64,000 nt of DNA. Source: Aphrocallistes beatrix. Lineage: Eukaryota > Porifera > Hexactinellida > Sceptrulophora > Aphrocallistidae. The notes beneath the pieces were generated by a model. It searched no databases, was not told where the DNA came from, and saw only the letters and a program-made list of their open reading frames with translations. Positions 21,978 to 47,702 of the stretch are shown here, piece after piece (within the stretch, counting starts at the first letter, position 1; every line of letters begins with the position of its first letter). Made by a program: the position numbers and the translations under genes. The stretch spans positions 2,542,001-2,606,000 of the forward strand of contig OY725503.1 of NCBI GenBank assembly GCA_963281255.1, written 5' to 3'.

Positions 21978-24375
21978 CATGGCCTACTTAATATACGGCT
22001 ATATATGTCACCGAGAAGGCCATAAAACGAAGAGGCTATTTTCTAATTCCCGTTCTAGGCCAAAATATGCTTCATACAACAACAAATTTGACTTTGTATA
22101 AGGTATTAAGTTATGGAGAATCCAGCGGAACCATTTTTAGGATTCCCACGTTTGTGGTTAAGTAGTTTTGGCGCCATTTAATGATGACGGTAACATTATT
22201 TGTATTATGATATTGAACTATCATGATATTAGAACTGTTTCAATCAATCAATCAATAATACCAGTATTAACCATAAACTATTTGAAAGCGAATGTAATAT
22301 CAAATGTCCAAATACTATATAGAAGTCAGCATAGCATGCATCATGCAATAATAATGAATTCCATTGGTTGTGTTGCCACCATTGAATGATATGGAGTGTC
22401 TATAAATATATGATTCTCTCAAATCCATTATCTTTTTCTCACGCCAGTTTATCATCAGTTTATCATCTTCATTATTATTATAAATTTCCAGCTGATCCAA
22501 TATTGTCAAGAAAATGGGCTGAATTATTGAATCGGCGAGATTTTCAGATCACAACCAATTCAGTAATTTGTATAGATCATTTTGAAGAAAGATTTATCAT
22601 TCAATATTCCACAAGCTCTACACTTAATCATTCAATGCATCCGATTCCGACCATTCATCCCAGTTTCATTCCTTCGAGTCTTGCAACTGTCCCGAATAAG
22701 TCTCGAAAACCCCCCGACACTTCGAATCTATCAGTCAGATGAGTTAGAATCCTTCAAATCCAAATTTCAACTAAGCTCATTTGCAGATGTAATCAAAGAC
22801 CTTAAGACCGCTAAGGAATATAGTGAATTCCAAATAGATGTTTCTGACAAGTGTTACATCATACAGAGTCGTGATATATTCTGGAATTGCAACTGTCAAA
22901 GAGTGCATACACATTGATAGTAGTTTTTACATCAAACTCAGCTATGAAGGTTGTCCCATTCCCCTTCCTGGTTACATTAGCTGTGCAGAAGGTTGTAAAT
23001 TGACCTCGCTTGATATGCTTACAAATCTCCCTGTGTATTGCAGAAATTCTGATTCAATCTACGAAACAAAGGTTATAAGAGAGCTTATGCAACTACAGTT
23101 TTACAATTCAAAAGCAAGAACCCCATATTCCAGTACAGTATTAAGATTTGCCCTTCTTATGCGATATACTTCCAATTCAGCATATCGATACTTTAAAAAA
23201 TTTCTTCCTCTGCCTAGCTATAGTCTATTGAGTAAACTAAAGTCTTTATCTATTGATACAAGTAAAGCTTTGCTTACATTGAAAGAAAATTCATTATTCA
23301 GTGAAGATGTAATATTATTGCTTGATGAGATGTACTTGCAACAAGAAGTACAATATGTTGGCTTTAAGTTAATTGGATGTGATTCTGAACTTAAGTTGTA
23401 TAAATGCATTATATGCTTCATGGTCGTCTCATTAAAACAATCTACACCTTACATACTCAAAGCAATTCCATTGACAAAAATTAATCACAATTTTGTTCAA
23501 GATGGTATACTCAACTGCATATCCATGCTCAATCAAAATTTTAATATCAGAGCTGTAGTTTGTGACAACCATTCCACCAATGTCAGCGCATACAAACATC
23601 TAAAGAGTATATATCCTTGTTTAATACGCGATAACGCAATGACGAATCCATCTAATCCGGAAAAAATATACATACCTCATATTTGATACGGTACATCTTA
23701 TCAAAAACATTCGAAACAACCTCCTAGCAAATAGATTTTTCCAAGTACCTGCCTTAGAAATGTCCCTGATGGATGTAACCATTAAAACGACTCCAGGAAC
23801 TATTCAATTGTCAATATTCCACCGCATTTTTGAAAAACATACAGCGATCGAATGTTATATGAGAAAGGCACCAAAAATTACATATAATGTTCTACATCCT
23901 GGCAATAATAAGCAGTCTGTCCCGCTTGCTTTGGCAATTTTTGTTATAACAACAATCGCAGCGATTCGTCAATACTTTCCCGAAGATATACCAGTATCCT
24001 CCTTTCTATCTTTAGTTTGGGTATATATCAAGAAGAATATCGATTGTGAAACTTGTAAAATAGCCCTCAGCAACGATCCTGTAACGAGTGCATATATTGA
24101 TGAACAAAATAAAGGCGGTCTTGAGTTGCCAGCATCATCCCTGAATAACTACACACAACGTGCTTTCTCAAAACTCGACCACTTGGAACAAATTATTCTT
24201 GAGTCAGATCTGCCTTCTAAACCTTTGACCCAATGTGTTTTATATAATCTATCATCAGAATGGGATGATTCATTTGTTTGTATGAATCACTCAATAATTG
24301 GCCGCCAGAAGGTAAATTCCATCATTTCTAATTGCTTTTTGAAGAATTTAGCTAAAGATGTTAACGAGACTAGTA
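21978..24375 (+). mobile_element. P-type transposon with THAP transposase, inserted in gypsy
   Basis: The left end at 21978 begins CATGGCCTACTTAATATACGG and continues for about 59 bp, nearly identical to both ends of the foldback at 45730-47702. Downstream is a THAP/P transposase on the plus strand. The matching right terminus is absent: gypsy RNase H resumes at about 24376 directly after the transposase frame. The 3' end of this transposon and the gypsy reverse transcriptase were therefore lost, probably by one deletion. Confidence 0.8.
22390..24370 (+). pseudogene. THAP/P-type transposase, nearly complete
   Basis: A THAP finger is partly readable at about 22470-22700 (KFPADPILSRKWAELLNRRDF, SVICIDHFEE, then a proline-rich tail). 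The first cysteine pair upstream was not found and may sit in another exon or be lost. The catalytic part spans 22838-23686 with LLLDEMYLQQEVQYVGFK (first Asp) and AVVCDNHSTNV (second Asp). A frameshift near 23680 leads to FDTVHLIKNIRNN and the C-terminal domain to 24370. Two or three shifts break the gene. It is the best-preserved P-type transposase here and the likely source type for the foldbacks with the same terminus. Confidence 0.85.
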
Positions 24376-25580
24376 AGAGAAGGGCTCCCAGCTAGACAAG
24401 GAAGGTCTTGCAATAATGTTTGCGGTTAAGAACTTTCATCAGTTCACAATTCTCCAGCGTATCTTTGATCGGAACAAGCCAGTACCCCTTTCGCATCAGC
24501 TAGATTGCAGAGATGGGCATTACTTCTTAGGCCGTATGATTACAGGATAGAGTACAAAGGTGCCGAAGGAGTTCAACATGCAGATGGGTCGAGTCGCCTG
24601 CGAGTGTTCCAATTCCGGGAGATGCCATTTTGCTCTTACAGAATTAGGAGCTATCTTCATTAAATGCAACGAAAATAAGACATCTTACAGATTGTAACAC
24701 AGTATTAGCTAGTGTCCGTCTAGTCATTTTACAAGGAAATAGTATGCCCCAATGAAGATTCTTTTGTGCCCTACCAGAACAAACGGGACGAACTTAGTGT
24801 ACAAGACGGGTGCATCTTGCGAGGAAGTAGATTAGTAGTTCCTATCAAAGGAAGGGAACTCGTATTGGATCTGCTTCATCAAGGGCACGGTGCGGCATTC
24901 TCCAGTGCAGAATTCCTGGACTTTGCGAAGCGTAATGGTATTAGACCTACAAGGACTGCACCGTATTACCAGTCGTCAAATGGGCAAGTAGAAAGGGCAG
25001 TCCAGACGTTCAAAGATTCCATGAAGGGAAGTTCATCAGACACAATTCAAACCAGAATTTCAAGGTTTCTCTTTACTTATCGGACGATACTCCATGCAAT
25101 TACTGGGCTTTTACCTGCAGAGTTGCTAATGGGCTGGCAGTTGCGAACTCACTTGAGCCTTCTAATACCGGATATAGTATCTTCAGTAACGAGGAGGCAA
25201 GAATATCAGAAGGAACGATATGACACACACTAGAGAAAAGTCGGTAACGGAAGGTAGTGAAGTTCTTATACTCGATTTTCCAGCGAATAAATCTAAATGG
25301 ATGAAAGGCGTAATAAAAGGTACAAGTGGCCCTATGTCATGTACTATAGAAATGTAGGACGGTAGAATTATATGTCGACACTTGGATCACATAAAGCCAT
25401 ACCTTGTAGCAGATAGGAATTCCGAATACATAGAGCGACAGGATGACAACTAATATCCGCTATCAGATCTGGTTCCTATAATCACCGAACAGTTAACTCC
25501 TAAACAAGCTCCGGATATACAGCCACGCCGGTCTAGTCGGATTCGCAATCCTCCGCAACGTTATGAACCAGAAATCTGAC
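24376..25580 (+). pseudogene. Gypsy RNase H and integrase relic
   Basis: RNase H C-terminal motifs are readable across frames: SQLDKEGLAIMFAVKNFHQF, RIFDRNKPVPLS, RPYDYRIEYKGAEGVQHADGSSRL. The integrase part (24766-25233) begins in the zinc-binding region, then jumps to SSAEFLDFAKRNGIRPTRTAPYYQSSNGQVERAV, the catalytic-Glu block. The first catalytic Asp segment is deleted. A Pro/Arg-rich C-terminus (RRSSRIRNPP-like) precedes the 3' LTR. It is non-functional. Confidence 0.8.
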
Positions 25581-25633
25581 CTTCTAGAAATGCACCTTCA
25601 TTACTCGCTTACTTCATTAGGAAGGAGGAGTGT

Positions 25634-25848
25634 TGTAACACTGATTAAGAATCTATTAGCATGGATTCTAGAATGTTCTTAGGTAACTCAATTAGATTGT
25701 AGCTCCTTATAGAGCTTCCTAGTGAAATAGCATATTTAGTACTATATAGGTATGTTCTCGATGTTAAGTGGTGTATGTTGGTATTACTACTAATTCATTA
25801 TATCACTATCGGTTACGTGCTGAGACTTACAGTTAAGCAATTAGGACA
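25634..25848 (+). repeat. Right LTR of the gypsy element
   Basis: Begins TGTAACACTGATTAAG and ends TTAGGACA; direct copy of 19844-20078. Confidence 0.85.
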
Positions 25849-25852
25849 GCAC

Positions 25853-26422
25853 TCATTTGTATATGAGAAGATAGCCCGGGAGCGTAGGCAGGGATAATAA
25901 TTTTTCTGTTGGAAACAATTTTGTATTTAAAGGAGTTAACGGAATGACTTCAGTTATTCTTGAAATTGAATGTGGAGAATTGCCGAAAGATTGAGGAGTG
26001 ATCGGAGAGCATGAGTGACCGAGGCGTAGTGATCGGGTTGAAGGTAGAATAATTGGTGTGGAGGGAGTGGAATTTAAGAGATGAAGAGCAAGGGGAGATG
26101 ATATGCAAGAACTAGGGGAATTGTGCTTTAATTGGTCACTGTAAATTATAGAGGGGATAGGCGAATGATTCGAATTGAAATCTTCATAATCAAATTCCAC
26201 CAAGGGATCTTTCTTTGTTATTAAATGTATTGGTGACCTGTCCCTGAATCCCTCAAGGGTTCTGAAGAAAAGTGGTCTATGATCGGTTCGACTACAGTTA
26301 TAAGTGTAGCTTTGTCCAAATTTTTGACTTTTTAGCAAGAGGGATCTTTTCGGGCCAAAGGCAGGTTTGAATTCATCTTTTCCCCAAATGTTATGCAGTT
26401 TTCCTATAATATGTAATAGCAT
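25853..26422 (-). CDS. Unrecognised Ser/Pro-rich ORF, 189 codons
   Basis: An open frame from an ATG at 26422 to TGA at 25853-25855, five bases from the gypsy LTR. The first 60 residues contain KLHNIWGKDEFKPAFG and KRSLLLKSQKFG; the rest is rich in Ser, Pro and Thr. AAGTTTAG just upstream of the ATG resembles a splice acceptor, so it may be an exon. Across the gypsy insertion the same strand continues into a PHD-finger frame (19646-19836), shifted by one base. I do not recognise the family and no function is assigned. Confidence 0.45.
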   Translation of the reverse strand: MLLHIIGKLHNIWGKDEFKPAFGPKRSLLLKSQKFGQSYTYNCSRTDHRPLFFRTLEGFRDRSPIHLITKKDPLVEFDYEDFNSNHSPIPSIIYSDQLKHNSPSSCISSPLALHLLNSTPSTPIILPSTRSLRLGHSCSPITPQSFGNSPHSISRITEVIPLTPLNTKLFPTEKLLSLPTLPGYLLIYK

Positions 26423-26453
26423 CTAAACTTTATTCTTGTAAACATCCAAAATA

Positions 26454-26641
26454 CAGTCGACTCCGCTTAATAGGGCCACATCGGTCAGAGGACATTTTGC
26501 CCCGATTAAGCGGAGGACCCTATTAACCGAAAATATTTTGTATTAGCTTCTATGTGTGAGAGCTATTCAGGTCCTGCCAAAAGTGGGCCGATTAAGCGAC
26601 TGACCCGATTAAACAGTGGCCCTATTAAGCGGAGTCGACTG
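26454..26641. mobile_element. 188-bp MITE with CAGTCGACTCCGCTTAATA ends (copy 2)
   Basis: Same length and almost the same sequence as 14671-14858, flanked by TA. Confidence 0.9.
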
Positions 26642-26883
26642 TATAATATCATTATCTATTCATGTTGTATATTTACGTCAGATATATGGAGCATAGTAAA
26701 GAATATCTACAGTGGAATTCACTTATTATATAAGAAACAACAAATACAAGTCAAATAGTCTGCTAATGATATAAGATAAATAATTGGAAACTTACTAGTT
26801 TTCTGAGCCCATGATAAAATCTACCGCAAGGTATTGACATTGTGAGATTTAAGATCTTGTTTTACCAGCTCCATCATCTCAAA

Positions 26884-27090
26884 TTATTTACTAGGAAAGT
26901 CAGATTCGTAGGGTTTGGAGAAATTTTCTTTAGAATCAGAAACATGCTTCCTGAATTGATCATTGCCTACTGCTGATAGTGAACCCTTCCAAGAGTAGAC
27001 CACTGCTATAGATTCGTCAGTCACCTTTTGAAACCTACCGATCGAGTCTAGCAAATGTTTCCTTGCGTTTCCCTTGGTTATACGTGGCAT
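26884..27090 (-). CDS. Small unrecognised ORF, 68 codons
   Basis: Starts with ATG at 27090 and reads MPRITKGNARKHLLDSIGRF; no known domain. It lies upstream of, and on the same strand as, the 189-codon ORF and could be a first exon of the same gene, but no in-phase splice junction was found. Confidence 0.25.
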   Translation of the reverse strand: MPRITKGNARKHLLDSIGRFQKVTDESIAVVYSWKGSLSAVGNDQFRKHVSDSKENFSKPYESDFPSK

Positions 27091-27324
27091 GACCGCTCAC
27101 ACTGATTCTCTAATTCGTTTGTTTTGTTTTATCACGAAATTAAGTCCAATGCTATTTATTAGTTTTGTATTCGAAGAATTCAAATTTCAAGTGATTTTGA
27201 GCATTTTAGCTTCCATGTGTACCCCCCGGTACAGTGACATTTTAAGAAAGGAATGTGGCCAAATGAGCGGTAAACTAGGCCTTTTTTGTAAGAATCGTTG
27301 TAAGAGCAAAGTGAAAGTGAGCAT

Positions 27325-27525
27325 CAAAATGGCTGAGTTCTAGTCGAAAACCTGAAATTTCTAGTTATAAAAGGTGACAATGAGGTCATAATTCCATGAT
27401 GAGTCGACATTTTCGTCTGAGGTCTGAACCTAGTGGAGCCATACCCAAAAGACTCCCGCATGCCAAATTTCAGCTTTCTGTTCCAGGCAGTTTCTTCAAT
27501 CAATTCGTTGCATATATATAGGGCG
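27325..27525 (+). repeat. Hairpin-repeat fragment, copy 4 (microsatellite end)
   Basis: Carries the part from AAAATGGCTGAGTT to CAATCAATTCGTTGCATATATA. The GC-rich end is missing; the DNA before it (27185-27320) resembles the duplicated segment at 46648-46920 in reverse. Confidence 0.7.
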
Positions 27526-28140
27526 TTAGGATCTTTCGATCCATGATTCGAAAGATCCGGATCGCGATCATTTTTTTGAGAATCCAGATCGGATCTAAAC
27601 TTTTAGTCCAGGTCCACTGGGGTCAACCGCGAAATTTGAGAAGTATTAACTTTTTTAGTGGTTTTGAGTTTTGGAGGTCCCTTTGGCCAAAATTAAGTCC
27701 ATGCCACTTTGGCGTGTTTGGACATATAGAGGAGCAAAACAAGGGGTCACTCGATGGGGTACTTGGAGGTTTGAAATTGGAATGTTGCACATTCCTGCGT
27801 CGTCAAGGAAAATATCAGCTCGAAAATGGTCATGTGACCCGACCCCTCTTTCCAAATTTAATGTTGAATTCTTTCTCCAAATTTAATGCTGATTACGAAT
27901 ATCAACATTAATTGAGTATGTTATGACTGGTCCAACCGAGATTGGCAGGGATGGGCATTTACAGTCAGGGAGTGGTCACGTGTTTTTCAAAACCGGTGCC
28001 AGGCGGGGCCAAAGAAAAAAAATTCGGGGACCTTGATATGATTTTGGCTTAGGTGGTCGAATGAAATCCGGGGCCGCAAAATCAAACTCGAGGCAAATGC
28101 CCCCGGATCCCCCACGCCCTAGGACCGCCCTTGTTTACAT
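27526..28140. repeat. hAT-MITE end plus unclassified repeat
   Basis: 27530-27610 is the same end as the hAT-type MITE at 36485-36978 (GGGCGTTAGGATCTTTCGATCC). The rest (about 27620-27960) recurs in reverse at 29345-29780 and in pieces at 31735-31895 and 33010-33120. A GC-rich end at 28020-28140 (GGGGCCGC, GCAAATGCCCC) recurs reversed at 34595-34680. No gene is supported. Confidence 0.6.
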
Positions 28141-28370
28141 TATATCCAAAAATTATTTGCAGTCAACTTTAACTTTGTGTAATATAATAAACATATTTTT
28201 AGGAAGAGTATTATAATTTCAGGATGATTTCATTTACGCGTTTTCATCCTATATATACACTATTTTGTGTTACACTACCATATCATGCTGTTAAACAGCA
28301 CTTTTTCTGGAATGCAAACTCATTTTTTTGTCGAAATATCAATCACAGTATAGCAATGTAATCTTATATA

Positions 28371-28849
28371 CAGTGGAACCTCCGTAATCCGACACCTCTG
28401 TATTCCGACATTTCTCTAAACCGACATTATTTCTGTTCACGGATCGTTTTTCTATAGAAAACAACTTCTATAATCCGACAATTTAATGATTTTCCAGTAA
28501 TGCAAATTCGACCTGTATAATCCGACTATTTTTTCGTCTATCAAATAATGTCAGATTATGGAGGTTATTTTACCTCCATAATCCGACAAATTATTCGTCT
28601 ATCAAAAAATGTCGGATTATGGAGGGGTTATTTTACCTCTTTGATCAGACAAATTATTCGTCTGTCAAATATTGTCGGATTGTGGAGGTTATTTTACCTC
28701 TATAATCCGACATTTTGCTGATTTTCCACAAATGTCGGATTATGGTTATTCGATAAACCTGGTTATTCGGTTATTCGATAATCCGACAATTTACTAATCC
28801 GACATTTTTTTCGTCTCCCATTGAATGTCGGATTATGGAGGTTCCACTG
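28371..28849. mobile_element. MITE built of AATCCGACA tandem units
   Basis: Ends CAGTGGAACCTCCGTAATCCG and its complement, flanked by TA. The interior is a run of degenerate ATAATCCGACAA / TGTCGGATTATGGAGG units in both orientations. Probably Tc1/pogo-type. Confidence 0.85.
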
Positions 28850-29940
28850 TACTAATGAATTTAGTTATGCAAATACTATCATTTAGTTGTGTAATCTTTT
28901 AGTATTTTTTTAAAGGATTCAGCAAGATGTAGTAAGCTTTGAAAGTCAGAATTTGGTGCATAATTGACTTTAGCACAAAATGACAATGCAAAAATTTTAA
29001 TTTCGCCCTTAGAATTCACAATTTTATTTACCTTGTTTGAAGTGATAGTTTAACAAATAATTACGACTCCTAGTTGGAATTAAACTAAAGTACGATTACA
29101 TTATATTAAAACTATTTTTCCTTTATATGTATCTTACTATTTTTCAGAGCCCAAATATTGTTGAATGCTTTAACAAATGCTCAAAAATTACACCACAAAA
29201 TATATAGGCTTACTTATATATTTGGATAATTAAATATAGGATAACTCAGAAATGATGTAATCCTGAAATTATAATACTCTTCCTAAACAGATGCACAATA
29301 TTACACAAAGTTTAAGTTCATTGCCAATAGTTTGGGACATACTATAAATGCCCATTCCTGCCAATCTCCGTTGGACCAGCCATAGCGTAATAAATTAGGT
29401 TAATGTTGATATTTGTATTCAGGATTAGATTTGGAGAAATTTGAGGGGTCTCATGATCATATTCGAGCTGAATATTTTCTGGACGACGCAGGAATGTGCA
29501 ACATTCCATTCTCAAACCTCCCAGTAGCCCCATCGTGTAAACCCTTGTTTTGCTCCCCTATATTCCATGAGTTCAAATAAACATAAATCAACACTCTACA
29601 TGATCATTTAGTAGGAATTCCTGAATGTGGAATTGTCCGAATTATTTAGGCGCCCCAAAAATATTTAAGCTTGTATAAAAAAAAATCCCCAAACATGCCA
29701 AAGTGGCATGGGCCTAATTTGAGCAAAGAGACCCCCAAGAACTCAAAACCACCAAAAAATTGAATACTTCTCAATTTTATCGGTTGACCCCGAAATCCAT
29801 GATTGGTCAAATTTCCAAATCGGCATTAGTCCCAATTAATTTGACATGTTGTCATTATTCCAAATATATTTGGATGTCAAATTTCAAAATTGTCCAAATT
29901 TGGAATTCTTTCAAGTCATACCATTCACAAATAGTTGTTA
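28850..29940. repeat. Interspersed repeat debris, no gene
   Basis: 28150-28370 and 29250-29345 are parts of an element whose ends (ACAGTATGTCCCAAA-type) also occur near 33117; 29345-29780 is a reverse copy of the 27.6-27.9 kb repeat. No supported coding region. Confidence 0.5.
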
Positions 29941-29947
29941 ATAATTT

Positions 29948-30118
29948 ACAAGCGCGCTTCGCTTGCTTGCGCTACGCGGCTGGCTAACATTATGTGTTCG
30001 CCTGAGGCGCCCTTTGGGCGCCTGGGGTCACATTGATTAATTAAAGGGAGAAAGCATCTCTAAATACACCTGTCCAACTTTTATAATCGATATCGCACGA
30101 AAAATCACAAAATTTGTA
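29948..30118 (+). repeat. Hairpin-repeat fragment, copy 5 (GC-rich end)
   Basis: From ACAAGCGCGCTTCGCTTG to CACAAAATTTGT, then cut by a piece of P-type foldback arm. Confidence 0.75.
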
Positions 30119-30290
30119 GGATGAGCATTAAGAATGTATTACCTGCATATATAAACATGGCATCAAAGTACATATATCCGTTGTCAAAATTTCGATTAGT
30201 CATCATATCTTTGCCCAACCGGTCATTTTAAGCACAATTTTGGCAATTGTATAAGCTGTTTTAAGCCTACTTCTAAATGGTATTGACCCT
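30119..30290. repeat. Fragment of P-type foldback arm
   Basis: Matches 33607-33775 of the foldback at 33510-34548 (GAATGTATTACC, CATATATAAACATGGCATCAAAGTA, TTCGATTAGTCATCATATC). Only one arm segment is present. Confidence 0.75.
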
Positions 30291-30296
30291 CGCCTG

Positions 30297-30414
30297 GCTA
30301 GGTCTTAAAAGTATGAATAGAGAAAACCCCACTTTCATTTTCACTTTCAGTTCACTTTCAATGTACTTTCATTTTCACTTTCAACATTCCTAGCTAACCG
30401 CGGGTTAAGGTGTG
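30297..30414. mobile_element. Short TTAA-flanked MITE with GAAAGTGAAA units (copy 1)
   Basis: Begins CCCTCGCCTGGCTAGG after TTGA and ends GCGGG before TTAA. The interior has repeated ACTTTCA. Relatives are at 58761-58876 and 60275-60375. TTAA plus CCC ends suggest a piggyBac-type element. Confidence 0.65.
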
Positions 30415-30579
30415 ATTTTGGCTATGCATTATCCTTACTGTTAAAACTTGATTAAGGTGTATATATGTGTAAATATAGTATATATATCCTTACTATTAAA
30501 ACTCGATTAATGTATATTTATTTATATCCTTACTATTAAAACTCGATTATTGTATATATATATATATATATATATATCT

Positions 30580-31070
30580 GTAACGAATTGATTGAAGAAA
30601 CTGCCGGGCGCAGAAGGCTGATTTTTGGCATGTGGGAGTCTTTTGGCTATGGCTCCAGTAAGTTCTGAGTTCAGAGCAAAATGTCGACTCATCATGGAAT
30701 TATGACGTCATTGTAACATTTTTAAAAGTTAAGCAACACAGTTATTCGAGCATATCTCAGCCATTATAGGAGATAGAAGGCTGAAATTTTAATAGAATCT
30801 GTATACTAACATACCTCACATATGATTTCATCAAAAAATAAAGACTCATCACTTTGTTATGACGTCATCATTACGCATAAAAAGTTTTAAAATTGACAAA
30901 TTTGGTGATTTTTTGAGTGAAATCGGTTTTAACACTAAGATGGACATATTTAGAGATGTTATCTCCCTTATAATTAACCAATGTCACCTCCAGGCGACCG
31001 AAGGGAGCCTCCGGCGGACACGAAGTGTCCGCCAGCCGCGCAGCGCAAGCAAGCGAAGCGCGCTTGTATT
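30580..31070 (-). repeat. Hairpin repeat, copy 6
   Basis: Full-length reverse copy, from CTGTAACGAATTG to GCGCTTGTA, preceded by a (TA)n tract. The motif AAAACTCGATTA with TCCTTACTATT occurs three times just upstream (30447-30555). Confidence 0.8.
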
Positions 31071-31107
31071 TATTAATATACGTGTATATATATATATATA
31101 TATATAT

Positions 31108-31604: not shown

Positions 31605-31889
31605 TAATAAATCTAAACTAATTTATAATATTAATTATGGTAAGTAGTAATTTATTATTGATCAAGTAAAATAAATTAAATATATTTCTTCTTTTTGAGC
31701 AGAATTGAGGCAATTAATGTCAGAGTATTAGGAGCAAAGAAGTTTTGGGTTCTTAGAGGTCCCCTTAACCAAAATTAAGCCTATCCCACTTTGGCATGTT
31801 TTGGCAATTTTCTTTGCAAGCTTAAATATTTGGGGGCGCCTGAATAATTGACAATCATTCTGGAAATCCTACTAAATGATCATGTAGAG

Positions 31890-33509: not shown

Positions 33510-34548
33510 CATAGCCTACTCTAATAATGCCTCACAGTAAAACAACCAAGGATGCGGTAATAGCCGAATGGATTAATACACGATTAGCCTAAAATCGTTA
33601 ACCATGTAGGATAGGCATTGAGAATGTTTTACCAGCATATATAAACATGGCATCAAAGTATATATATCCGTTTTCAAAATTTCGATTAGTCATCATATCA
33701 TTGCGCAACAGGTCATTTTAAGCACGATTTTGGCAATTTTCTAAGCTGTTTTAAGCCTACTTCTAAATGTTATTAAGGTAGTATTTTTGTGTATAACTAA
33801 GATTAGTACGAGTTGATTTGAAAAGTTTAGAATTTTTCAATGGAATGTTGTTACATTCCTATGTTGCTATGGTAAAGTATTTTCATCAGTTTGAGCCATA
33901 TCCTGCAAACTGTAAGAACTAGATCTTCAAATTTGATCGTATTTGATAGGCAATTGGCTACTTCCTATTAGGTAATAATACAATTTAAACTTCTAAATTC
34001 ACAGACTATAGAGTTATGCGACAATTTAGTGTTTTGGTCACATTCTTTAAATCAACCCATAACTCAAAACTCGTTGGATTTAGAAATTCAAGTTGTATTA
34101 TCACCTAATAGGAAGTAGTCCATTGTCTATCAAATACGATCAAATTTGAAGACCTAGTTCTTACAGTTTGCACGAAATGGCCCAAACTGATCAAAAACTT
34201 TACCATAGCAACGCAGGAATGTAACAACATTCCATTAAAAAATCACCTCGTACCAATCTTGGTTCTACACAAAGATCACACCTTAATACCATTTAGAAAA
34301 AGGGTTAAAACAGCTTAGAAAATCGCTAAAATTGTCCTTAGAATGACCTGTTGCGCAATGATATGATGACTAATCAAAATTTTTCTAACGGATATATGTA
34401 CTTGATATCATGTTTATATATGCTGGTAATACATTCTTAATGCCTATTCTGCATTGTTAACGATTTTAGGCTAATCGTGTATTGATCCATTCGGCTACTA
34501 CTTCATTAATTTTCTGTCTACTGTGAGGCATTATTAGAGTAGGCTATG
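33510..34548. mobile_element. P-type (Galileo-like) foldback element, copy B, perfect 7-bp TSD
   Basis: Both ends begin CATAGCCTACTCTAATAATGCCTCACAGT in inverted orientation. TATAATT flanks both sides exactly (33503-33509 and 34549-34555). Arms are about 490 bp around a short centre near 34030. No coding capacity. Subterminal CCAAGGATGCGGTA is the family motif. Confidence 0.9.
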
Positions 34549-36476: not shown

Positions 36477-36484
36477 GTTGCACA

Positions 36485-37654: not shown

Positions 37655-38150
37655 AGTATGCCAAATAGGTACTGTGTAGCCAACTTCTGCTCCAATTACG
37701 ACGCACTGATTACGTTCCAATGTTTGAAATGTTGAATCATTGATCCAAGAAAATGTAAGATGAATGGCGAAGGTTTCTCCATAGAGATGATGCATGGAAA
37801 TTGGCGAGTCTTCATCTGTGCGAGACATTTCTGTGACAAGGATATACTACTTCACTTCGATATTCTTCAGGGTGTCGGTACAGTGAAGAAGTTTCCAGAT
37901 AACCTGGTCTTCGGAAAATGCTAAGCCCATCAATCTTCTTAATTGTCCTTCATATTTAAGTGTAAATTGGGACTCCCAATTGTCATACATCCTGATGAAG
38001 CAGCCGGACATGTCCGCGAGGAAGACGAGGCTATGGGAGAGCATGGAACTGTGATATGGAGGATAGAGTTGGGACCTAGAACTGCAGATGACCAGGACTA
38101 CTTTAGCAAGTTTATTGTTGTGAGAGCGCGCTTAAAAGAAGTCAGCTGAA
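37655..38150 (+). pseudogene. THAP-domain transposase N-terminal remnant
   Basis: Plus-strand translation gives NRYCVANFCSNYDALITF near 37660, then RVFICARHFCDKDI near 37800 (the C-x2-H block), then PINLLNCPSYLSVNW near 37930 in a shifted frame. These match in order the blocks GCRSNYD, YVCVKHFRDEDV and GCPSYL of the THAP protein at 1014-1505. Stops and shifts break it and no catalytic domain follows. Confidence 0.7.
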
Positions 38151-38328
38151 GGTATGCGAGCACCTCACATCTTCCAGACAGGTACGGGGATCAATTTACT
38201 ATTAACCTGTTGAATACGACATTCGCAATAGCGGCTACAAGTACTTCTTACTCATAGTTGGATCTCTTTTCACACTAGGTCAAGGAAATCGCGTTGAAAG
38301 ACCAGACCGCCTAGTCCATCGTCGAAAA

Positions 38329-38754
38329 GTATGTATGTATGTATGTATGTATGTATGTATGTATGTATGTATGTATGTATGTATGTATGTATGTATGTAT
38401 GTATGTATGTATGTATGTATGTATGTATGTATGTATGTATGTATGTATGTATGTATGTATGTATGTATGTATGTATGTATGTATGTATGTATGTATGTAT
38501 GTATGTATGTATGTATGTATGTATGTATGTATGTATGTATGTATGTATGTATGTATGTATGTATGTATGTATGTATGTATGTATGTATGTATGTATGTAT
38601 GTATGTATGTATGTATGTATGTATGTATGTATGTATGTATGTATGTATGTATGTATGTATGTATGTATGTATGTATGTATGTATGTATGTATGTATGTAT
38701 GTATGTATGTATGTATGTATGTATGTATGTATGTATGTATGTATGTATGTATGT
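38329..38754. repeat. (GTAT)n microsatellite, 426 bp, about 106 uninterrupted units
   Basis: A pure tetranucleotide tract. All long open frames over it (alternating Met-Tyr-Val-Cys on one strand, His-Thr-Tyr-Ile on the other) are artefacts of the 4-base repeat. Confidence 0.98.
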
Positions 38755-39123
38755 CCGTACGCGCTACTGCGAAATCTAACAGTCCGATTTTTACCAAATT
38801 TCGCATGTAGGATCTCATTATGGTGTAGATGTGCACCGTCAACATTTTTTCGCAAAATCTCATCACTTCCGGTTTCTATAAGTATATATTCATATTTTAA
38901 CACCATCACTGCAAAGCTTTGTTCAAAGAAATAAGCAAGATCTCAACGACTAATGTAGGTTATTTCACCATGTAGGACCGATTGTCGCGATCTGAAAGTA
39001 ATAACATGACTATTTTATGAGTTATTAACATATTGATATCTAGTACATATGTTCACACATTTTAAAAAAATTTAGATTTTGAGCTAAAAGCGAGTTCTCA
39101 ACGGCTAATATAGGATATTTTAA
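38755..39123. other. No gene seen
   Basis: Unannotated AT-rich sequence with loosely repeated phrases (TCCGATTTT..CC, CAACGGC/TAATATAGGATATTTTA) that reappear at 39465-39620. Confidence 0.4.
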
Positions 39124-39465
39124 TACCGTATTTCCCTGAATAAGCGCCGGGGCTCGAATAAGCGTCGGACGCTGGGGCATTTTAGTTCTCTGAACATCAT
39201 ATCAAACTAGTATTCTCAGTAGTGGCATAGATACAAGTGCTTTTTTAAACATTACATTATCCTTTTTTAATAGAACTAACATTTTCAATTGTCGCAAAAA
39301 TAAAAGTGCCAGTCAATGTAGTAAACAAAAAAAAGAGCGCCGGGACAAAAATAGCGAATTAAAAAAATAAGCGCCGGGGCTTAAATAAGCGCCGGTTCGA
39401 ATAAGCGCCGGGTCTAAAGGGTGTACGAAATAAATAAGCGCCGCGTTATTCGAAGTAAAACGGTA
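39124..39465. mobile_element. MITE with ACCGTATTT ends and AAGCGCCGG units
   Basis: Left TACCGTATTTCCC and right AAAACGGTA are inverted ends. The interior contains six or more copies of AATAAGCGCCGGGG. Superfamily unclear. Confidence 0.65.
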
Positions 39466-39625
39466 TGTAGATTCCGATTTTCACACTTTGAAAGTGGTAA
39501 TCTAAGTATTTTATGAGTTTCTAACATATGTATATATACATTGTTTCACACCTTTTGAAAAAAATCTTTTTTTGAGCGAAATACGAGCTGTCAACGGCAA
39601 ATATAGGATATTTTAAGGAGTAGAT

Positions 39626-40499
39626 GTTGCAGTGCAAACGCGAGATTGGTGTACACTCGTGTACACTGGTGTAAATCCGGGTTTCCATTAAGGTTGACAA
39701 TCTCGCGTTTACACCAATGTAAACGCGAGTACCTATATAATTAAATATTGTGGTTGATTTATTACTCTAAAATATGATATGATGAGACGTATACTAATTA
39801 CATCTTCTAATCTGATTTATTCTCGTGTGCAATTCGATTTCAATAAGTATTATAATCTCGGTTTGCAATTCTATGATCTAGACTAAATTGTCAATAAACA
39901 TATCTACTTATGGCATTTTGCAAGAACATCAAACTCGACATCTGCTCATGCACCATTCCAAGCAATTTAACAGCTGTCAGATTTACTGTAAACAGGAAGA
40001 AATATCTCTCGAGATGACAAAGACATTTAATGGATACTTATTTTTATGTTGTCCACATCATACATTTATTTTAGGTTTTCATCACACTTATAAAATCGTG
40101 ACTTATTTCAGTATGATGCAGATTGCAAATTCTACAATTAATCTTCTTATTTATTCATGGCATGCTACATATAATCTTTAAAATTAACACAATGCAATTA
40201 ATTACTACAGACTCTCGAAATCCAAACAAATTAAAAGAGAAAATTTTAATACGTAATAAATTTGTTAATTAATATAGTATACTGTTTTAACAATAAACAA
40301 TTCATCATATCGTATTCTAGAGTAATAAATCAACCACAATATTTAATTATATAGGTACTCGCGTTTACACTGGTGTAAACGCGAGATTATCAAACTTAAT
40401 GGAAACCCGGGTTTACACCAGTGTACACCAGCTAGTTGGTGTACACGCGTTCACACTGGTGTACACCCGTGTATACCAATCTCGCGTTTGCACTGCAAC
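39626..40499. mobile_element. Foldback element with GTTGCAGTGCAAACGCGAG ends
   Basis: Inverted ends of about 170 bp, rich in the units GTGTACACTGGTGTA and TTTACACCAGTGTAAACGCG. TAGAT flanks both sides (39621-39625, 40501-40505). The 500-bp centre has one 97-codon open frame (39888-40181) without recognisable motifs, possibly chance. Confidence 0.8.
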
Positions 40500-40505
40500 A
40501 TAGAT

Positions 40506-41640
40506 TCCGATTTTCCCACCTAGAATGCCCTAAAATCAGTATTTCCCGATGTATTCCGATATTCACATTTCATGTTCATTCGAGTCGCTTCCTGGAGCTG
40601 CACTATCGGTCTGTCGACCGAATTTTGTATTATTTGAAATTTCAGTTTAACTCAGTCATTATAGGTAGAGAGCTGAAATTTTAATAGAATGTGTATATTA
40701 ATATATCCTTACTATTAAAACTCGATTAATATTTAATTGTTTATACATGTTGCAGTCCAAGTGCGAATTTAGAATAAATAAATAAAAACTGTCCCTCTGA
40801 CCTCTTCCACTAATCTTTTGTTGATTTCCTTCAATGGGCCCGTTTCTCTGCCACATGTGCCACTTATGGCACATTAGAATGTGTTCCAATACTTTTGGCC
40901 AGGCAGTGTAGTCCAAGTGCGAATGGTATTATGCTCGACGCAATTGGGTAGCTAAAATCACTAATGGGGCTAGCAACTGCTCTTCTTTATACCAATACAC
41001 TATGTTGTTATATTTATAAATAGGAATTCAGGGTCTTGAGGTAATTAAATTTGTGTACTACTAACGTAGAGTGGTGTTAATTAGCTTTTAAACATTAATA
41101 TTATTTGAAAGCATTTCGTCCAAGCACTTATAAATAACTTAGTCAACTTTTAATAACACATAACAATAAGAATTAACTTCTCTAGTAGAAGTTACTGAAT
41201 AATATGGATCTGAATAAAAAGAAAAAACACAATATATATTCGAATAGTAGTCGGCCTTCGATAATCACCTCCGTCGAATAATCGTCCCCCCAAAGAGTGT
41301 ACTAAACATTTTATGTGCCTATTAGAAAGAAGATTAACAGTAAATTCTACAATTTCTTGATTCACTCGTGTGGTAACATTCATTCAAAACTCTCATATCT
41401 CTGAACTATTCATTTATTTCAAGTGGTAAATGAAGGTAAAAATTAAGATTCGCCCGATACATTTCGAGTATATACAGCAGTGTTCTCAGCGTGGATTCGT
41501 TCGGAGAGCCTAAAGGGGTGCTGGAAAAATTTTAACGGATTAAGTGGGTGGTAAGGTTAGAAGAGCGAAGCGTTCTGTATTGCATTACATTGAGATATTG
41601 TGTTTGAAGGTACTTCATCCATTTGTAATATATTCTTTGG
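40506..41640. other. No gene seen
   Basis: Contains a short hairpin-repeat fragment at 40645-40710 (ending in ATCCTTACTATTAAAACTCG) and otherwise unannotated AT-rich DNA. Confidence 0.5.
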
Positions 41641-41645
41641 ACATA

Positions 41646-43509
41646 CACTCGAACCTCTCTTATCCGGGCACCGGAGGGTGCCCGGATAACAGAATTTGCC
41701 CGGATAAGAGAGGTGCCCGCGCCCGTAACTCAGAAATCAACTTGAATGGCAGTTTATAGTGTTACAGTCTGTTTCATAATTATTTACAATTTTTCAGGTG
41801 ATTTTGAATGACCATAACTTACTATGAAATCTGTTAGGCAGTACTTCGATGCAATTTTTTTCAACTATACACTCATCCTAACGATTTCTATTGATACCTT
41901 TCCAACTCTTTGATACTCAACTTTTTTTTTTTAAATTTTTTCACTTCCGGCGGGCTTTTATCTCTCTTTTTGGTCTCGAAGTTAATTCTGACAAGCTAGT
42001 TAAGGCAATTCAACTAATTTTCAGCGAATAATGCAGAAACAACGTAGAGAAGATGTAGCTAAGCTCATTGAAACTTCAAAACTTCCAATGAAGGACATTG
42101 CTTCTATGTGCGGTGTCACCCTAAAGACGGCCTATAATGTTAAGCAACGAATTTCAGCGGGCGAAAGCATTGAGCACAGGGGCGGAGCTGGGCCTAAAAG
42201 GTGCCTCAACAGAGGAGACAGGATCTCACTCTCTCTAAATATTAAAAACAATCCCCGAATTTCTTTGCGGACTATGCAGAGTAGTCTAAAGGTTTCACGA
42301 GGCGTTGATGTGTCGTGTTCAACGGTGAGGAGATGCATCAAAGAGATGTCCTATTCCAGGAAAACTGCAATCAAAGAACCAAATATTACTCCCTCCCATG
42401 AAGCATTGATAGTTTTATGGGCTAAGAAACACAAGTTCATCAATTGGAACAAGATCTTCTTTACGGATGAGTGTTCCATTTGGCTTTGCGGCGGGAAAGT
42501 ACAGATGTGGACCAAGGGTACTCAAAAGCCCGTCATCAACATTCCGAGACATTCACCCAAGATCCATATTTGGGGAGGGATATCTACTCGAGGAACTACT
42601 CCTGTGCATATTTTTAGAGATAATTTCAATTCTATCGCATATTGTAATGTGATAAATGAATGTTTGACAGAGACAGCAGACCTACTCTACCCAGACGTTT
42701 GGAAACTCCAGGAGGATAATTCGAGCATTCATAAATCCAAGCTCTCTGTCTCATACAATGAGGAACGCGCCATTAGATGTATAGATTGGCCATCCTGCAG
42801 CCCTGATTTGAATCCTATAGAGAATTTATGGGCTGTTCTGAAGAAAAGGATTCTAAACAGGGCTCCTAAGACGATTGAAGATGTAAAAAACTATGTAGAT
42901 ATAGAGTGGGGAACCTTTGATCCTGAATTCATTGGCAACTTCACAAAATATATGCGTAAGCGGTGCGACCTTGTGATAGCTGCTCAAGGCAAAAAGATTA
43001 ACTATTAAACCATATCCTATTTAATTGTTTCTAAGGGGCCATAGAACCAAAATATAACTTAAATGAGTACATATCAACTTGACTTTTCAAGTTTGCATTG
43101 GGTATAATAATTGTAAATAATTATGAAACAGACTGTAAAACTGTCAATTTGTATAATGGGTGAGTTTAAACAATATCTAGTGCCCGGAACTTAGAGGTTA
43201 TCAAAATTTGAGTTCCGGATAAGAGAGGTGATTGTAAAATAGATATTCTATAAAGGAAAAGAAACTATTCCATTGCGATTGATTAATACATTTTAAGCAG
43301 TATTACCCCTGAATATATTAGATGTCGCAATTATCTTCCAAATTCATTAACAAAGTTCATTAAATAATATTACATGATAATGATTGCTGGAATTGTGGTT
43401 AATAATTGACTTGAAAATAGGACAATGCATATTGACTAAATGTCGAAAGGGCTGCCCGGTTGAGAGAGCTGTCCGGATATCGGAGGTCCGGATAAGAGAG
43501 GTTCGAGTG
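41646..43509. mobile_element. Complete Tc1-like transposon, TA-flanked
   Basis: Ends CACTCGAACCTCTCTTATCCGG and its exact complement, flanked by TA at 41644-41645 and 43510-43511. A second internal copy of the end motif (CCGGATAAGAGAGGTG) lies on each side at about 41698 and 43217, giving the IR/DR-like arrangement of paired transposase sites seen in some Tc1 elements. It encloses one intact transposase gene and was inserted into the decayed Ginger/KRBA2-like element. Confidence 0.92.
42031..43008 (+). CDS. Tc1-like DD34E transposase, intact
   Basis: A 325-codon open frame starting at ATG, within the usual 320-350 range of Tc1 transposases. Residues 1-110 form the helix-turn-helix DNA-binding part (MKDIASMCGVTLKTAYNVKQR; a second block at ISLRTMQSSLKVSRG). 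The catalytic triad is Asp146 (FFTDECSIW), Asp229 (LQEDNSSIH) and Glu264 (SPDLNPIENLW), with 34 residues between the last two. The glycine-rich IWGGIS block is present at about 180. No stop or frameshift interrupts it, and the TIRs and TA duplication are complete. This is the best candidate for an active transposon in the window. It would cut and paste the enclosing element at TA sites. Confidence 0.95.
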   Translation: MQKQRREDVAKLIETSKLPMKDIASMCGVTLKTAYNVKQRISAGESIEHRGGAGPKRCLNRGDRISLSLNIKNNPRISLRTMQSSLKVSRGVDVSCSTVRRCIKEMSYSRKTAIKEPNITPSHEALIVLWAKKHKFINWNKIFFTDECSIWLCGGKVQMWTKGTQKPVINIPRHSPKIHIWGGISTRGTTPVHIFRDNFNSIAYCNVINECLTETADLLYPDVWKLQEDNSSIHKSKLSVSYNEERAIRCIDWPSCSPDLNPIENLWAVLKKRILNRAPKTIEDVKNYVDIEWGTFDPEFIGNFTKYMRKRCDLVIAAQGKKINY

Positions 43510-43511
43510 TA

Positions 43512-45060
43512 CTTCGAATTGATTCCTCGTATAAAGAGATTCTATTGTCCCTTGTCTTGTCGATATAGTATACAAATCATCCTCTTTATTTAAAATAATA
43601 CCTAACAAATTCTTGCTTCCCAATGTTGTCATGGTATCTGGCGATGAGATTTGTATTAAAACACTGTCTCCAAAATGGGCAGGAGGAAGTCTATTTATAC
43701 TTGATTTTAACATACGCTGATGTTGCTGGGTTTGTTTCTTTTTAATTTGTGCCGCATTGCTTCTGCATCATTTTGATTTCTCTTCAAATCACATTTATTA
43801 CACACGATTGAACTGCCACATCCTTCCTCTCCAATACTGCGACCACAAATAATATGAACATATCTAAAGCAATATATACAAGTATGTGCTCCAGATGTCT
43901 CTAGCTCACAAACTGGACACACCATGTTACTGATAGTGTATCGCCGGTGCAATGCATGTACTGTTGGTATTATCAGAATTTTCTGAACAACTATCAGTAA
44001 CGGGAGGAACATAGAACTGTAGTCCTGAGGCTCATACTCATATGCTTTTAATTATCTGTACACACTAACAATTTAGAAGAATAAGCAGGTTTAGAATTAT
44101 TAGTCATTATTTGTTCATAATCCTCTTCTGTCAATATGCTGCTGGAAAGTTAATCCGGAATACCTTGTTGGGAAAGGGCAATAGGAGGTTTAGTGTTGAA
44201 GACTGCTTGGAACGGTGACATTCCTAACCCACTATGGTAACTGATATTGTTTTTACTGTATGTACTTCTTTAATATGTTTAACCCGACAAGTTGATTGCC
44301 GCTACTAAAGCAAAGCGGTGGAATGCGTATTGATGTCCTTGTTTGCACTCTCATCAATCCTACCAATCCTTGAGTTTCAGGATGTCGAGGTTTCCCATGG
44401 ATAATTTTTGAAGAAGACCAGTACTGATTTAGAGTATTGAACAAAAATTCCTTTTAAAATTCTCTACCACTATCAGACTGGAATATATGTCCCAGGATAT
44501 GTCCAGCAAAACATCAGCTACTTCTGTAGCTGTCTTAGTTTTAAGAGCGCGTATCCTCACAAACTTGGTGAAATGATCTTGATAAACAAGCAACTATTTA
44601 TGGAAAGTATCCTCAGGAAAAGTAGTCGAAAAGTCAATTAAATCCACTTGACCATACGATAAGTATGGAGAAGAAGCGATGGACATAACGACCAAAGACT
44701 TTAGGGGTTTCTTAGCTTTTTTTATTTTACATAACTCACAATATGAAACAAATATTTGGCATATATGTTTAGTAATGCCGTGAAACTCCTGCGATATACG
44801 TGCATAGAGTCTATCATGTCCGCAGTGATCCATTTCTATTTGGATTCGCTTTAAAGTTTCAAACATGTCCTCCACAGGAATTACACGTTTATTAGATCCG
44901 TTATCTTTTCCTCTTAAATAAAGAATGTGTGAAGATTGATATTGTACGATAGTAAAACGAGCATTCAAACGGATCCATTTGAAATGTTCAGGAGTATTTT
45001 TCAAAAGTGGTGGTGTGCGCAAAATACGAATCTTATCATCAATATCTTGTTTTGTGAAAA
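43512..45060 (-). pseudogene. Ginger/KRBA2-like integrase transposase, decayed
   Basis: Minus-strand pieces appear in the order of the KRBA2/SCAND3-type integrase. The zinc-binding HHCC part is at 45022-44700 (MDHCGHDRLYARI, then SYCELCKIKK). The first catalytic Asp is in YGQVDLIDFS (about 44630). The second is in FQSDSGREF (about 44480), and HGKPRHPETQGL near 44380 marks the Glu block, itself frameshifted. Further down are a cysteine-rich finger (CPVCELETSGAHTC..C....C; 43930-43790) and a C-terminal piece RLPPAHFGDSVLIQI, SRQGTIESLYTRNQFEV (43700-43530). Many stops make it dead. The Tc1-like element sits at its 3' end. Confidence 0.8.
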
Positions 45061-45729
45061 GTTGTGTTATATTTGGGGGTTAGCTGTTTAATATCCACCA
45101 AGAAATCAGATTCATGACCCATAAGTTAGCAACGTGGAAACAATCTAACAATTAGATAAAGATGAACAAGTTGGTTTATACAATGAAATAAATTAGGAGT
45201 TAAATCAATCAATGTGATATCAGTAATATATATCAACTAATAGGGCCACCTACGTATATTCAGGATGAGTGATAAATCTAAAGATGATAAACCAATACTA
45301 ACAAACAGCTGAATTTAAACAGAATACCATGATTTGTGTCATTAAAATCAGCATAGCACCTCAATAAATAAAATAAATTAATACAATGACTTGTACTATT
45401 TTAATCAAAAAAATCACTTTAACATTTTCGCGATCATCACTGTCCTTGATAGAATTTGATTATAAAAAGATACATGACAATTCGATACACGATAATTAGA
45501 TACAGATAATTCGATACACGACAGTTCGATACAAATTTGATTGGATATTTATTATACACTTAAGATTATGAATGTAACCATTCAAATTACAGTATCTTGT
45601 TTTGTAGATGTCATCTTAGTGTTTGTAATATGACAGTTCTAATTTTTTGCATGTGTCAATACTTTGTTTAAGTAACTACATTAAAGTCGTTAACCTTTTT
45701 AGTGTGCTTCCTATATTATTATATTGGAT
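45061..45729. other. No gene; short tandem GATAC repeat
   Basis: 45468-45535 holds four or five degenerate copies of AATTCGATACACGAT. Nothing else recognised. Confidence 0.5.
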
Positions 45730-47702
45730 CATGGCCTACTTAATATACGGCTATATATGTCACCGATAAGGCCATAAAACGAAGAGGCCAGTTTTAGCAA
45801 AGTCAAAATTTAATTAGACCGATAAATCTAAAACCGCTTCCGATAGACGTTTGAAATGTATTATTACCATATACAGACATTATATCAGAGTATCCAATTC
45901 CGCTGTCAAAAATTTGATATGTCATCATGTGATTGCGCAATAGGCCCTTTTTAGAGCGGTAAATGTTGCTGTTCCAGGTCATATTAAACATCGTTATCTG
46001 CATTTCTAATGCTTGATTTTTTGATAGAGCAACAATAGGAAGACCTCGAGCGAAAAATCTGAAAATTTTAGTTAGATGTCTATGCATTCCTCAGTTGCTA
46101 TGGAAACAAAAAATTACATGTTTAAGCCATAACTCGAAAGGTATAGATCGTAGAGTCTATGAAATTACACCATTTAATCCGTAAACTATTACTTCCTATA
46201 TGAGAATAATACTATACACATGTCTATTTCCAATAAGTTCTGAGTTATCTAGGATTTTATCATGATCTATAGAGAAGTAATGAGATGTGACAAAATCCTA
46301 GATAACTCAGAACTTATTGAAAATAGACATGTGAATAGTATTATTCTCATATAGGAAGTAATAGTTTACGGATTAAATAGTATAATTCCTTAGTCTGTAC
46401 GATCAATACTTTTCGAGTTATGGTTTAAACGGGACGCCGGAATTAGACCAACGCAGAGGTAGGAATTAGACCAACGCTTTTTTAAAGTTAGGAACAAGAC
46501 CAACGCAGAGGTAGGAATTAGACCAACGTTTAAGGTAGGAATAAGACCAACGTAGAGGTAGGAATTAGATCACTTTTTAACAGTTAGTAAACATGTTGAT
46601 TTAGAATTGAAAACAATGCAACCATACAAAATTTTTTCCTTTGCACCTAACTCAAAAGGCTTACTTTCACTTTGCTCTTATAATGAATGTTTCCGACATA
46701 AAATGCCTGCTTTCGCTCTTATTTGGCCACATTCTTTTCTGAAAATGTCACTGTACCCCCCACCACATTGAACTGAAAATGCTTCAGATCACGTTCAATT
46801 TCAATTTGCTCCTAACTCAAAAGGCTTACTTTCACTTTGCTCTTATAATGTTTCCGACATAAAACGCCTGCTTTCGCTCTCATTTGGCCACATTCTTTTC
46901 TGAAAATGTCACTATACCCCCCACAGGGAACTGAACGTTGGTCTAATTCCTAGCATCAGGCTAGTTGGTCATATTCCTACCTAAATGTTGGTCTTATTCC
47001 GCTGCCCCGTCTAATTCCTACCACTGCGTTTGTCTTGTTCCTAACTTTTAAAATGTTGGTCTAATTCCTACCTCTGCGTTGGTCTAATTCATTTCTCTGC
47101 GTTGGTCTTGTTCCTAACTTTAAAATAACGTTGGTCTAATTCCTACCTCTGCGTTGGTCTTGTTCCTAACTTTAAAATAACGTTGGTCTAATTCCTACCT
47201 CTGCATTGGTCTTGTTCCTAACTCTAAAAAAGCGTTGGTCTAATTCCTAGCATCATGCTAGTTGGTCTTATTCCTACCTAAACGTTGGTCTTATTCCGCT
47301 CCCCCGTTTAAATATGTAATTTTTTGTTTCCATAGCAACTGAGGAATGCATAGACATTCAAACTAAAATTTTCAGATTTTTGGCATGAGGTCTTCCTATT
47401 GTTGCTCTATCAAAAATCAAGCATTAGAAATGCAGATAACGATGTTTAATATGAGCTGGAACAGCAACATTTTCCGCTCTAAAAAGAGCCTATTGCGCAA
47501 TCACATGATGACATATCAAATTTTTGACAGCAGAATTGGATACTCTGATACAATGTTTGTATATGTAATAATACATTTCAAATGTCTATCGGAAGCGGTT
47601 TTAGATTTATCGGTCTAATTAAATTTTGACTTTGCTAAAACTGGCCTCTTCGTTTTATGGCCTTCTCGGTGACATATATAGCCGTATATTAAGTAGGCCA
47701 TG
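45730..47702. mobile_element. P-type (Galileo-like) foldback element, copy C, perfect 7-bp TSD
   Basis: Both ends begin CATGGCCTACTTAATATACGG; ATTGGAT flanks both sides (45723-45729, 47703-47709). The first 59 bp differ by about one base from the left end of the THAP-transposase element at 21978. Arms are about 520 bp with a centre near 46270. The right arm is interrupted by a TTAA-flanked MITE (46439-47307). Without it the element is about 1.1 kb, like copies A and B. Confidence 0.92.
46439..47307. mobile_element. TTAA-flanked MITE of GGAATTAGACCAACG tandem repeats
   Basis: Ends ACGGG.CGCCGGAAT and ATTCCGCTCCCCCGT are inverted copies with TTAA on both sides (46435-46438, 47308-47311). The arms are arrays of a 20-25 bp unit GTAGGAATTAGACCAACG, forward on the left and reversed on the right. 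The centre has two direct copies of a segment (46648-46758 and 46808-46920). TTAA flanks suggest piggyBac or Kolobok type. Confidence 0.8.

Follow-up and report, generated by a model that had tools for sequence, protein, structure and literature searches.

Why should an element that encodes a transposase and foldbacks that encode no protein carry the same ends? The question is raised by a stretch of 64,000 nucleotides from the glass sponge Aphrocallistes beatrix (GenBank assembly GCA_963281255.1, contig OY725503.1, positions 2,542,001 to 2,606,000), which we call the window. A preliminary description of it had proposed one family similar to Galileo of Drosophila, in which a THAP transposase element at 21978 and the neighbouring foldbacks are linked through their termini. 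We agree that these elements belong to the P superfamily and that several subfamilies coexist. However, the foldbacks of the window bear termini of two P lineages, which we call P-I and P-II, and a search of the examined autonomous elements did not find their arms, so that a single Galileo-like family, as first worded, is not supported. In our opinion it is likely, judging from sequence comparison, that the foldbacks with P-I ends (type A) are mobilised by P-I, that their body is a separate module, that a related body occurs in foldbacks with P-II-like ends (type B), and that ends have been exchanged at least once.

The common terminus is easy to confirm. Window positions 21978-22036 match 47702-47644 (minus strand), one end of the foldback at 45730-47702, at 59 of 59 bases (E ~1e-26), and the other end of this foldback, 45730-45788, at 58 of 59 (E ~5e-25). 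The common stretch of 59 bp described earlier is real, but its full extent is 65 bp once genome copies are compared. The 7-bp target-site duplications (TSDs) that had been given for three window elements are exact, and the flanks of 10104-11172 agree at six of seven positions, as had been said (Table 1). The statement that all termini start with CATRGC holds for the five elements named and fails genome-wide, where autonomous elements on contigs C3 and C14 start with CATAGA (C and L numbers are our handles for contigs and loci). The assembly comprises 100.5 Mb in 28 contigs, and all genome counts given here are lower bounds. A search with the first 24 bases of the terminus, allowing at most 2 mismatches, found at least 94 forward and at least 99 reverse matches, and the reversed control found none.

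Beside the terminus at 21978 there is indeed a THAP transposase: PF05485, PF21787 and PF12017 score above Pfam cut-offs in the open reading frames (ORFs) at 22386 and 22838. Yet this copy lacks its right part and thus cannot itself prove the link between transposase and foldbacks. It aligns with full-length relatives up to about 24387, the DNA that follows reads as Ty3/gypsy-like pol, and it is owing to this truncation that no right TSD is present. The aligned pieces of the copy are 90-95% identical to C12:3175007-3179073 and 92-96% identical to C12:3395313-3398717. The first of these, its nearest relative, is 4067 bp long with type A ends on both sides and the TSD TCTCGAG; its transposase is 91% identical to that of the window over 273 amino acids, although the open frame has only 637 codons. 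Hence the proposed link stands on whole transposase-bearing elements elsewhere in the genome, which have the terminus at both ends, and not on the truncated copy; these elements also dispose of the idea that the terminus belongs to a foldback unconnected to any transposase. The same C12:3175007-3179073 element contains a self-complementary stretch of ~480 bp that is unlike type A or type B arms.

A protein search of the genome gave at least 124 matches, and the best 30 loci merged into 25 stretches; PF21787 has at least 131 matches in the genome, of which the elements analysed are a part. In 10 of the 25 stretches an element spans the transposase and has matching ends and an exact 7-bp TSD. 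One more has a duplication at 6/7 and one has a rearranged end, while in the other 13, including the window copy, both ends and a duplication were not seen within the stretch examined. Autonomous P-I elements measure 3-4 kb, and three further ones have open frames of 859, 858 and 821 codons. As in the window ORFs, PF05485 and PF21787 exceed the cut-off in L036, L039, L042 and L032; PF12017 exceeds it in L036 and L039 and falls slightly below it in L042 and L032. The L036 protein aligns with the Drosophila P transposase (PDB 6p5a) over residues 235-640 (E 8e-6), and in this alignment DEM coincides with DEM, SD with SD, and the E of PLER with that of IVEH, acidic positions that we take to be the catalytic residues of Drosophila P. 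The inverted repeats of nine autonomous P-I elements extend over 193-260 bp in seven, and over ~62 and 67-69 bp in those on C16 and C10. Within the 65-bp P-I end the outer block CATRG...TACT recurs, and an inner AGGCCA (bases ~56-62) recurs in six of seven aligned P-I subfamilies, one C14 end departing from it. On C16, the P-I element at 1997594-2001427 is flanked on both sides by foldback arm sequence.

How much of a P-I element do the type A foldbacks share? When 30 ends of 15 foldbacks are compared with five autonomous ends, identity is 93-99% in each 5-bp bin up to bases 61-65, then drops to 18%, 5% and 1%, and ranges from 1 to 60% per bin to base 110; the inverted repeat of the autonomous elements matching type A runs on to 193-240 bp. 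A search for type A arms in 12 autonomous elements gave only chance-level matches of 13-23 bp. With homology to the helper stopping at 65 bp and the arms not found, plain deletion derivatives are unsupported in the elements examined. Since the foldback boundary and the short inverted repeats on C16 and C10 give the same length, the comparison points to ~65 bp as the minimal P end.

Most uninterrupted type A foldbacks measure 1.05-1.1 kb, with pairs of 0.68 and 0.93 kb too. They consist of arms of ~525 bp around a loop of 31-35 nt in nine of 12 cases (54 and 79 nt in two, unresolved in one), and 11 of 14 are self-complementary over the whole length at 89-97%, the other three being interrupted or rearranged. 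Thus long inverted repeats make up most of the element, as in a foldback. Type A elements are also gene-less, with P ends, an unrelated interior and the duplication length of the P elements described here, which is what characterises a P-MITE (MITE, miniature inverted-repeat transposable element). The first sample, 30 loci, corresponds to 23 elements. For 16 of these both ends lie in the stretch, with an exact TSD in 15 and a 6/7 match in one; all 12 pairs added later, one of which completes an earlier element, have exact TSDs, which brings the total to 27 exact of 28. Wherever counted, the length of the duplication is exactly 7. At C4:4656181-4658952 a type A foldback is nested in a type B foldback, with the TSD GCTGGTG.

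Type B is the more numerous in these searches. Its 34-base end, with at most 3 mismatches, occurs at least 599 times in one orientation and 595 in the other (~1,190 ends; reversed control 0), which would be ~600 copies if each had both ends. The TSD sample consists of 19 whole copies and 7 further pairs: of these 26, 19 have exact 7-bp duplications, 4 match at 6/7, and 3 do not match. The expectation of many copies with 7-bp duplications, formulated earlier, is therefore borne out for type A and has exceptions in type B. In two type B copies, L080 and L083, the flanking 7-mers agree at only 3/7, as recombination between copies could leave. The type B loop has a median of 27 nt (range 26-53, measured in 18 of 19), and a hairpin without a spacer is ruled out by the measured loops of both types.

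The ends of type B lead to the second lineage. Those of L077, an element 2.2 kb long with the TSD CTTTAGC and fragments of a P-II transposase (64% to L097 over 275 amino acids), agree with them at 33/34 and 31/34 bases. L097 is a P-II element of 3591 bp with a 958-amino-acid frame and the TSD CCCGAAG; it has THAP and PF21787 and no PF12017 match. One of its ends matches the type B end at 77.6% over 58 bp, the other at 72.3% over 65 bp, and one L101 end does so at 87.5% over 32 bp. Matching ends with an exact 7-bp TSD were found in three of six P-II stretches (L077, L097, L100), and L101 has 6/7; in the stretches examined for L098 and L099 no end pair with a 7-bp duplication was found. Compared with those six stretches, a type B foldback gave end matches only, of at most 65 bp, and its arms were not found. 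A 5.4 kb candidate for an autonomous type B element, C2:7039461-7044883, had to be rejected: it has type B ends and an exact TSD (GATTAAA), but the two pieces read are foldback arm and gypsy-like coding sequence, and it reads as a nested insertion of a Ty3/gypsy-like retroelement.

The two lineages are distant from each other. Protein identity between P-I and P-II is 24-28%, as against 49-56% within P-I and 37-54% within P-II. In a tree of 24 rows, which includes Drosophila P, two hymenopterans, a beetle, Oopsacas and unnamed proteins, they form separate, fully supported clades, each with database relatives; given the long branches, the placement of Drosophila P is unsure. The P-II protein search also matches Oopsacas proteins named P transposase. 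The inner motif of the end differs as well, AGGCCA at ~56-62 in P-I versus CCAGGGATGCG at ~47-57 in P-II.

Despite these different ends, the bodies of type A and type B are related. Both begin with CATRGCCTACT, and A bases 33-65 are only 24% identical to B. Further inside, A 114-223 aligns with B 113-222 at 77.3% over 110 bp (E 3.5e-21) and A 325-380 with B 324-379 at 76.8% (E 3.8e-8); A 463-535 aligns with the type B foldback at 10104 at 76% (E 5e-7). The reversed control of the arm comparison was empty. Half-elements measure 547 bases in A and 540 in B, and type A lies at a greater distance from the type B majority sequence than do the type B foldbacks set against it (71-97%). The target sites differ too. 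The G+C of the duplicated 7-mers is 0.529 in type A (n=27), 0.486 in P-I (n=10) and 0.340 in type B (n=21); A differs from B (p = 6e-4) and does not differ from P-I (p = 0.58). This contrast is what two different transposases would give, although the numbers are small. A palindromic preference within the duplicated 7-mers was looked for and not found.

Related bodies with ends of two P lineages are most simply accounted for by terminus exchange. We imagine the following. The P-I transposase, with its THAP domain and P-type RNase H domain, most likely recognises the 65-bp terminus and makes 7-bp duplications; it would cut and paste its own 3-4 kb element and, in trans, the type A foldbacks of ~1.1 kb. 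The P-II transposase would move type B foldbacks. The hairpin body, two arms of ~525 bp and a loop of mostly 26-35 nt, would be a separate module that swapped its ends, and hence its mobilising transposase, at least once. A new end acquired on one side could be made symmetrical by arm-to-arm copying, because an arm and its mirror copy can template each other.

Several points weigh against this reading. The ends of type B match P-II elements less exactly than those of type A match P-I, and among the elements examined none was an intact P-II element ending in the exact B terminus. In the intervals between the blocks the per-bin identity of A and B is 38-64%, which partly reflects a forced alignment of A+T-rich sequence, so that homology is proven at the blocks and not along the whole arm. 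The 7-mer composition of P-I versus B reaches only p = 0.052. Seven of the 23 type A elements had no partner end in the stretch examined (one partner was located later), and the additional A and B pairs were chosen for mismatch-free ends among the first 100 places listed, so that the sample favours well-kept copies. Movement as such was not observed, and mobilisation in trans is our interpretation. We hold terminus exchange to be likely and not more than that, because arm homology is shown at three blocks and L097 has a second end that is less similar to type B.

It may be argued that the foldbacks are of the usual Galileo type: they would have arisen by internal deletion from an autonomous element that has escaped discovery, and their arms would be its long inverted repeats. 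Galileo foldbacks do form by internal deletion, according to the part of the source considered here (PMC3573991), seven of the nine autonomous P-I elements have long inverted repeats, and the transposase copies examined are only a part of those present (12 elements for the arms, 6 P-II stretches). However, in the autonomous elements that match type A, C12a and C12b, the inverted repeats measure 237 and 193 bp and do not resemble the foldback arm in their inner part, and neither the chance matches in the 12 elements nor the end-only matches in the 6 P-II stretches reveal such arms. We regard this explanation as improbable.

A different objection is that nothing was exchanged, and that the ends of one ancient foldback drifted along with the P-I and P-II transposases. 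The arms of A and B are old (38-79% per bin past base 66) and the two ends begin alike, which such co-divergence would accommodate. But P-I and P-II proteins are only distantly similar and lie in separate clades with their own database relatives, and it is hard to see without exchange how 110 bp of a non-coding arm stayed at 77% when identity in a 33-base part of the terminus fell to 24%; we consider this account rather unlikely. The remaining explanation, that P-I and P-II ends independently captured the same sequence as a hairpin body, is in effect P-MITE birth twice. P ends with unrelated interiors are known from Anopheles, as far as the cited part of that report goes (PMC1562414). Against a double capture, half-elements of nearly equal length and two blocks in register within one base look as if they come from one hairpin, and we find it very improbable.

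Is there evidence that arms copy each other? In 19 of 19 type B and 9 of 12 type A foldbacks the two arms of an element are more alike than the between-element mean, but only 7 of 19 and 2 of 12 also surpass the best other copy; arm-to-arm conversion is suggested by these comparisons and not proven. Further, two type B foldbacks sit centrally in larger palindromes, with flanks that are inverted and not direct duplications. In the window palindrome at 5346-7027 the 7-mers GTCCGAC/GTCGGAC also agree at 6/7 as direct copies, so that the foldback may there have inserted into the middle of a palindrome that already existed. At C3:3597378-3599374 the inverted copies agree at 99.4% over the element end and no less than 306 bp of adjoining flank, and the 7-mers show no match as direct copies; as C3:3597070-3599680 (L141, L142), inverted flank and end amount to 349 bp at 99.4%, up to the edge of the stretch examined. 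Such a palindrome is what overshooting arm-to-arm copying would leave. A bolder reading, on which we are evenly divided, is that the foldback body is a persistent selfish module that outlives its helper by swapping termini of ~60-65 bp between P lineages, with symmetrising arm copying that overshoots into flanks.

Table 1. Mobile-element features of the window, in window positions.
Feature	Position	Strand	Remarks
Right-truncated P-I transposase element	21978..24387	+	THAP frame 22386-22742; broken P-type transposase frames 22838-24395
Type A terminus, 65 bp	21978..22042	+	Left flank 7-mer GCTGGTG
Type A foldback, TSD ATTGGAT	45730..47702	.	Interrupted by ~0.88 kb without arm homology (46432-47307)
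Type B foldback, P-II-like terminus, TSD TATAATT	33510..34548	.	71-72% to type B majority sequence
Type B foldback, flanks 6/7 (GATATGG/GATATTG)	10104..11172	.	87-88% to type B majority sequence
Type B foldback, centre of larger palindrome	5646..6720	.	80% to type B majority sequence
Larger palindrome around the 5646-6720 foldback	5346..7027	.	Flanks are inverted copies
Deletion derivative of L100-related P-II element, L100 terminus, TSD GTTATGC	15683..17963	-	Broken transposase fragments 16342-16983
P-II transposase fragments	3..1505	-	THAP in 1014-1505; RNase H part in 224-877, under Pfam cut-off

Some further features of the window may be mentioned. Positions 3-311 are 53-71% identical to the P-II proteins L097-L101, and at 37658-38036 two short stretches resemble the N-terminal part of the P-II protein L098 (29-41% amino acid identity). 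A long tandem repeat at 38206-38934 has several open frames with Met-Tyr-Val-Cys or Ile-His-Thr-Tyr repeats. By reading of their sequences, a 334-codon frame at 42004-43008 is a putative Tc1/mariner-like transposase, and a 543-codon frame at 50682-52313 a putative reverse transcriptase similar to those of LINEs (long interspersed nuclear elements).

The host had been suspected to be an animal other than Drosophila, and the mitochondrial COX1 gene identifies it as a glass sponge: among named records the protein is nearest to those of Aphrocallistes beatrix (93% amino acid identity) and A. vastus (87%), with other glass sponges next and Oopsacas minuta at 82%. This gene (L102, C28:3140-4480) has 11 AGA and 11 TGA codons; TGA reads as Trp, and AGA seemingly not as Arg. 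In glass sponge mitochondria AGR is read as Ser. Our literature search, outside whose coverage most subscription journals lie, turned up no earlier report of either P elements or foldbacks from glass sponges. With the present elements, P-type foldbacks that make 7-bp duplications are placed in a sponge. Gene-less transposons may survive the death of their helper by adopting the ends of another, and the sponge would offer a natural experiment on this. The end counts further suggest that this genome of 100 Mb holds some hundreds of near-palindromes of kilobase length; such DNA is known to be fragile elsewhere.

The comparison with Galileo is the closest at hand. In the cited parts of the Galileo reports, the autonomous element's own inverted repeats, 0.3-1.2 kb long, serve as foldback arms, only ~40 bp at the extremity are conserved between species, copies can be chimeric and arms extended, and duplications favour GTANTAC (PMC3688188, PMC3573991, PMC4168063). 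The sponge elements resemble this in the THAP P-type transposase, the gene-less foldbacks and the mostly 7-bp duplications. They differ in that the arms diverge from the helper past 65 bp, related bodies have ends of two lineages, type A duplications are richer in G+C, and the host is a sponge. We do not claim membership in Galileo, given that the arms do not appear to be repeats of the helper and that Galileo, 1360 and THAP9 are outside our tree.

Drosophila P itself is similar to the extent that the sponge transposase aligns to 6p5a, although the sequences are very distant. Its inverted repeats are 31 bp long. Its duplications are of 8 bp, as the cited part of the source has it (PMC10983969). 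Zebrafish Pdre2/THAP9 is likewise a P-type element in a non-insect animal, but it is described there with 13-bp inverted repeats and 8-bp duplications (PMC10983969). The P-MITEs of Anopheles gambiae have P ends on an interior unlike any P element, as sponge type A has, and exist beside several P subfamilies; one is a composite with the ends of two subfamilies (PMC1562414). They differ in their 8-bp duplications and in their interiors, among which no significant identity is reported, and are not described in the part of the report considered here as full-length hairpins (PMC1562414). So far as the cited parts of these sources extend, P ends on foreign interiors were already known (PMC1562414), and Galileo had provided foldbacks of P type with 7-bp duplications, chimeric copies and arms that grow (PMC3573991, PMC3688188, PMC4168063). 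What appears to be new here is the combination of full-length hairpins whose arms are not the repeats of their helper with related bodies tied to two transposase lineages.

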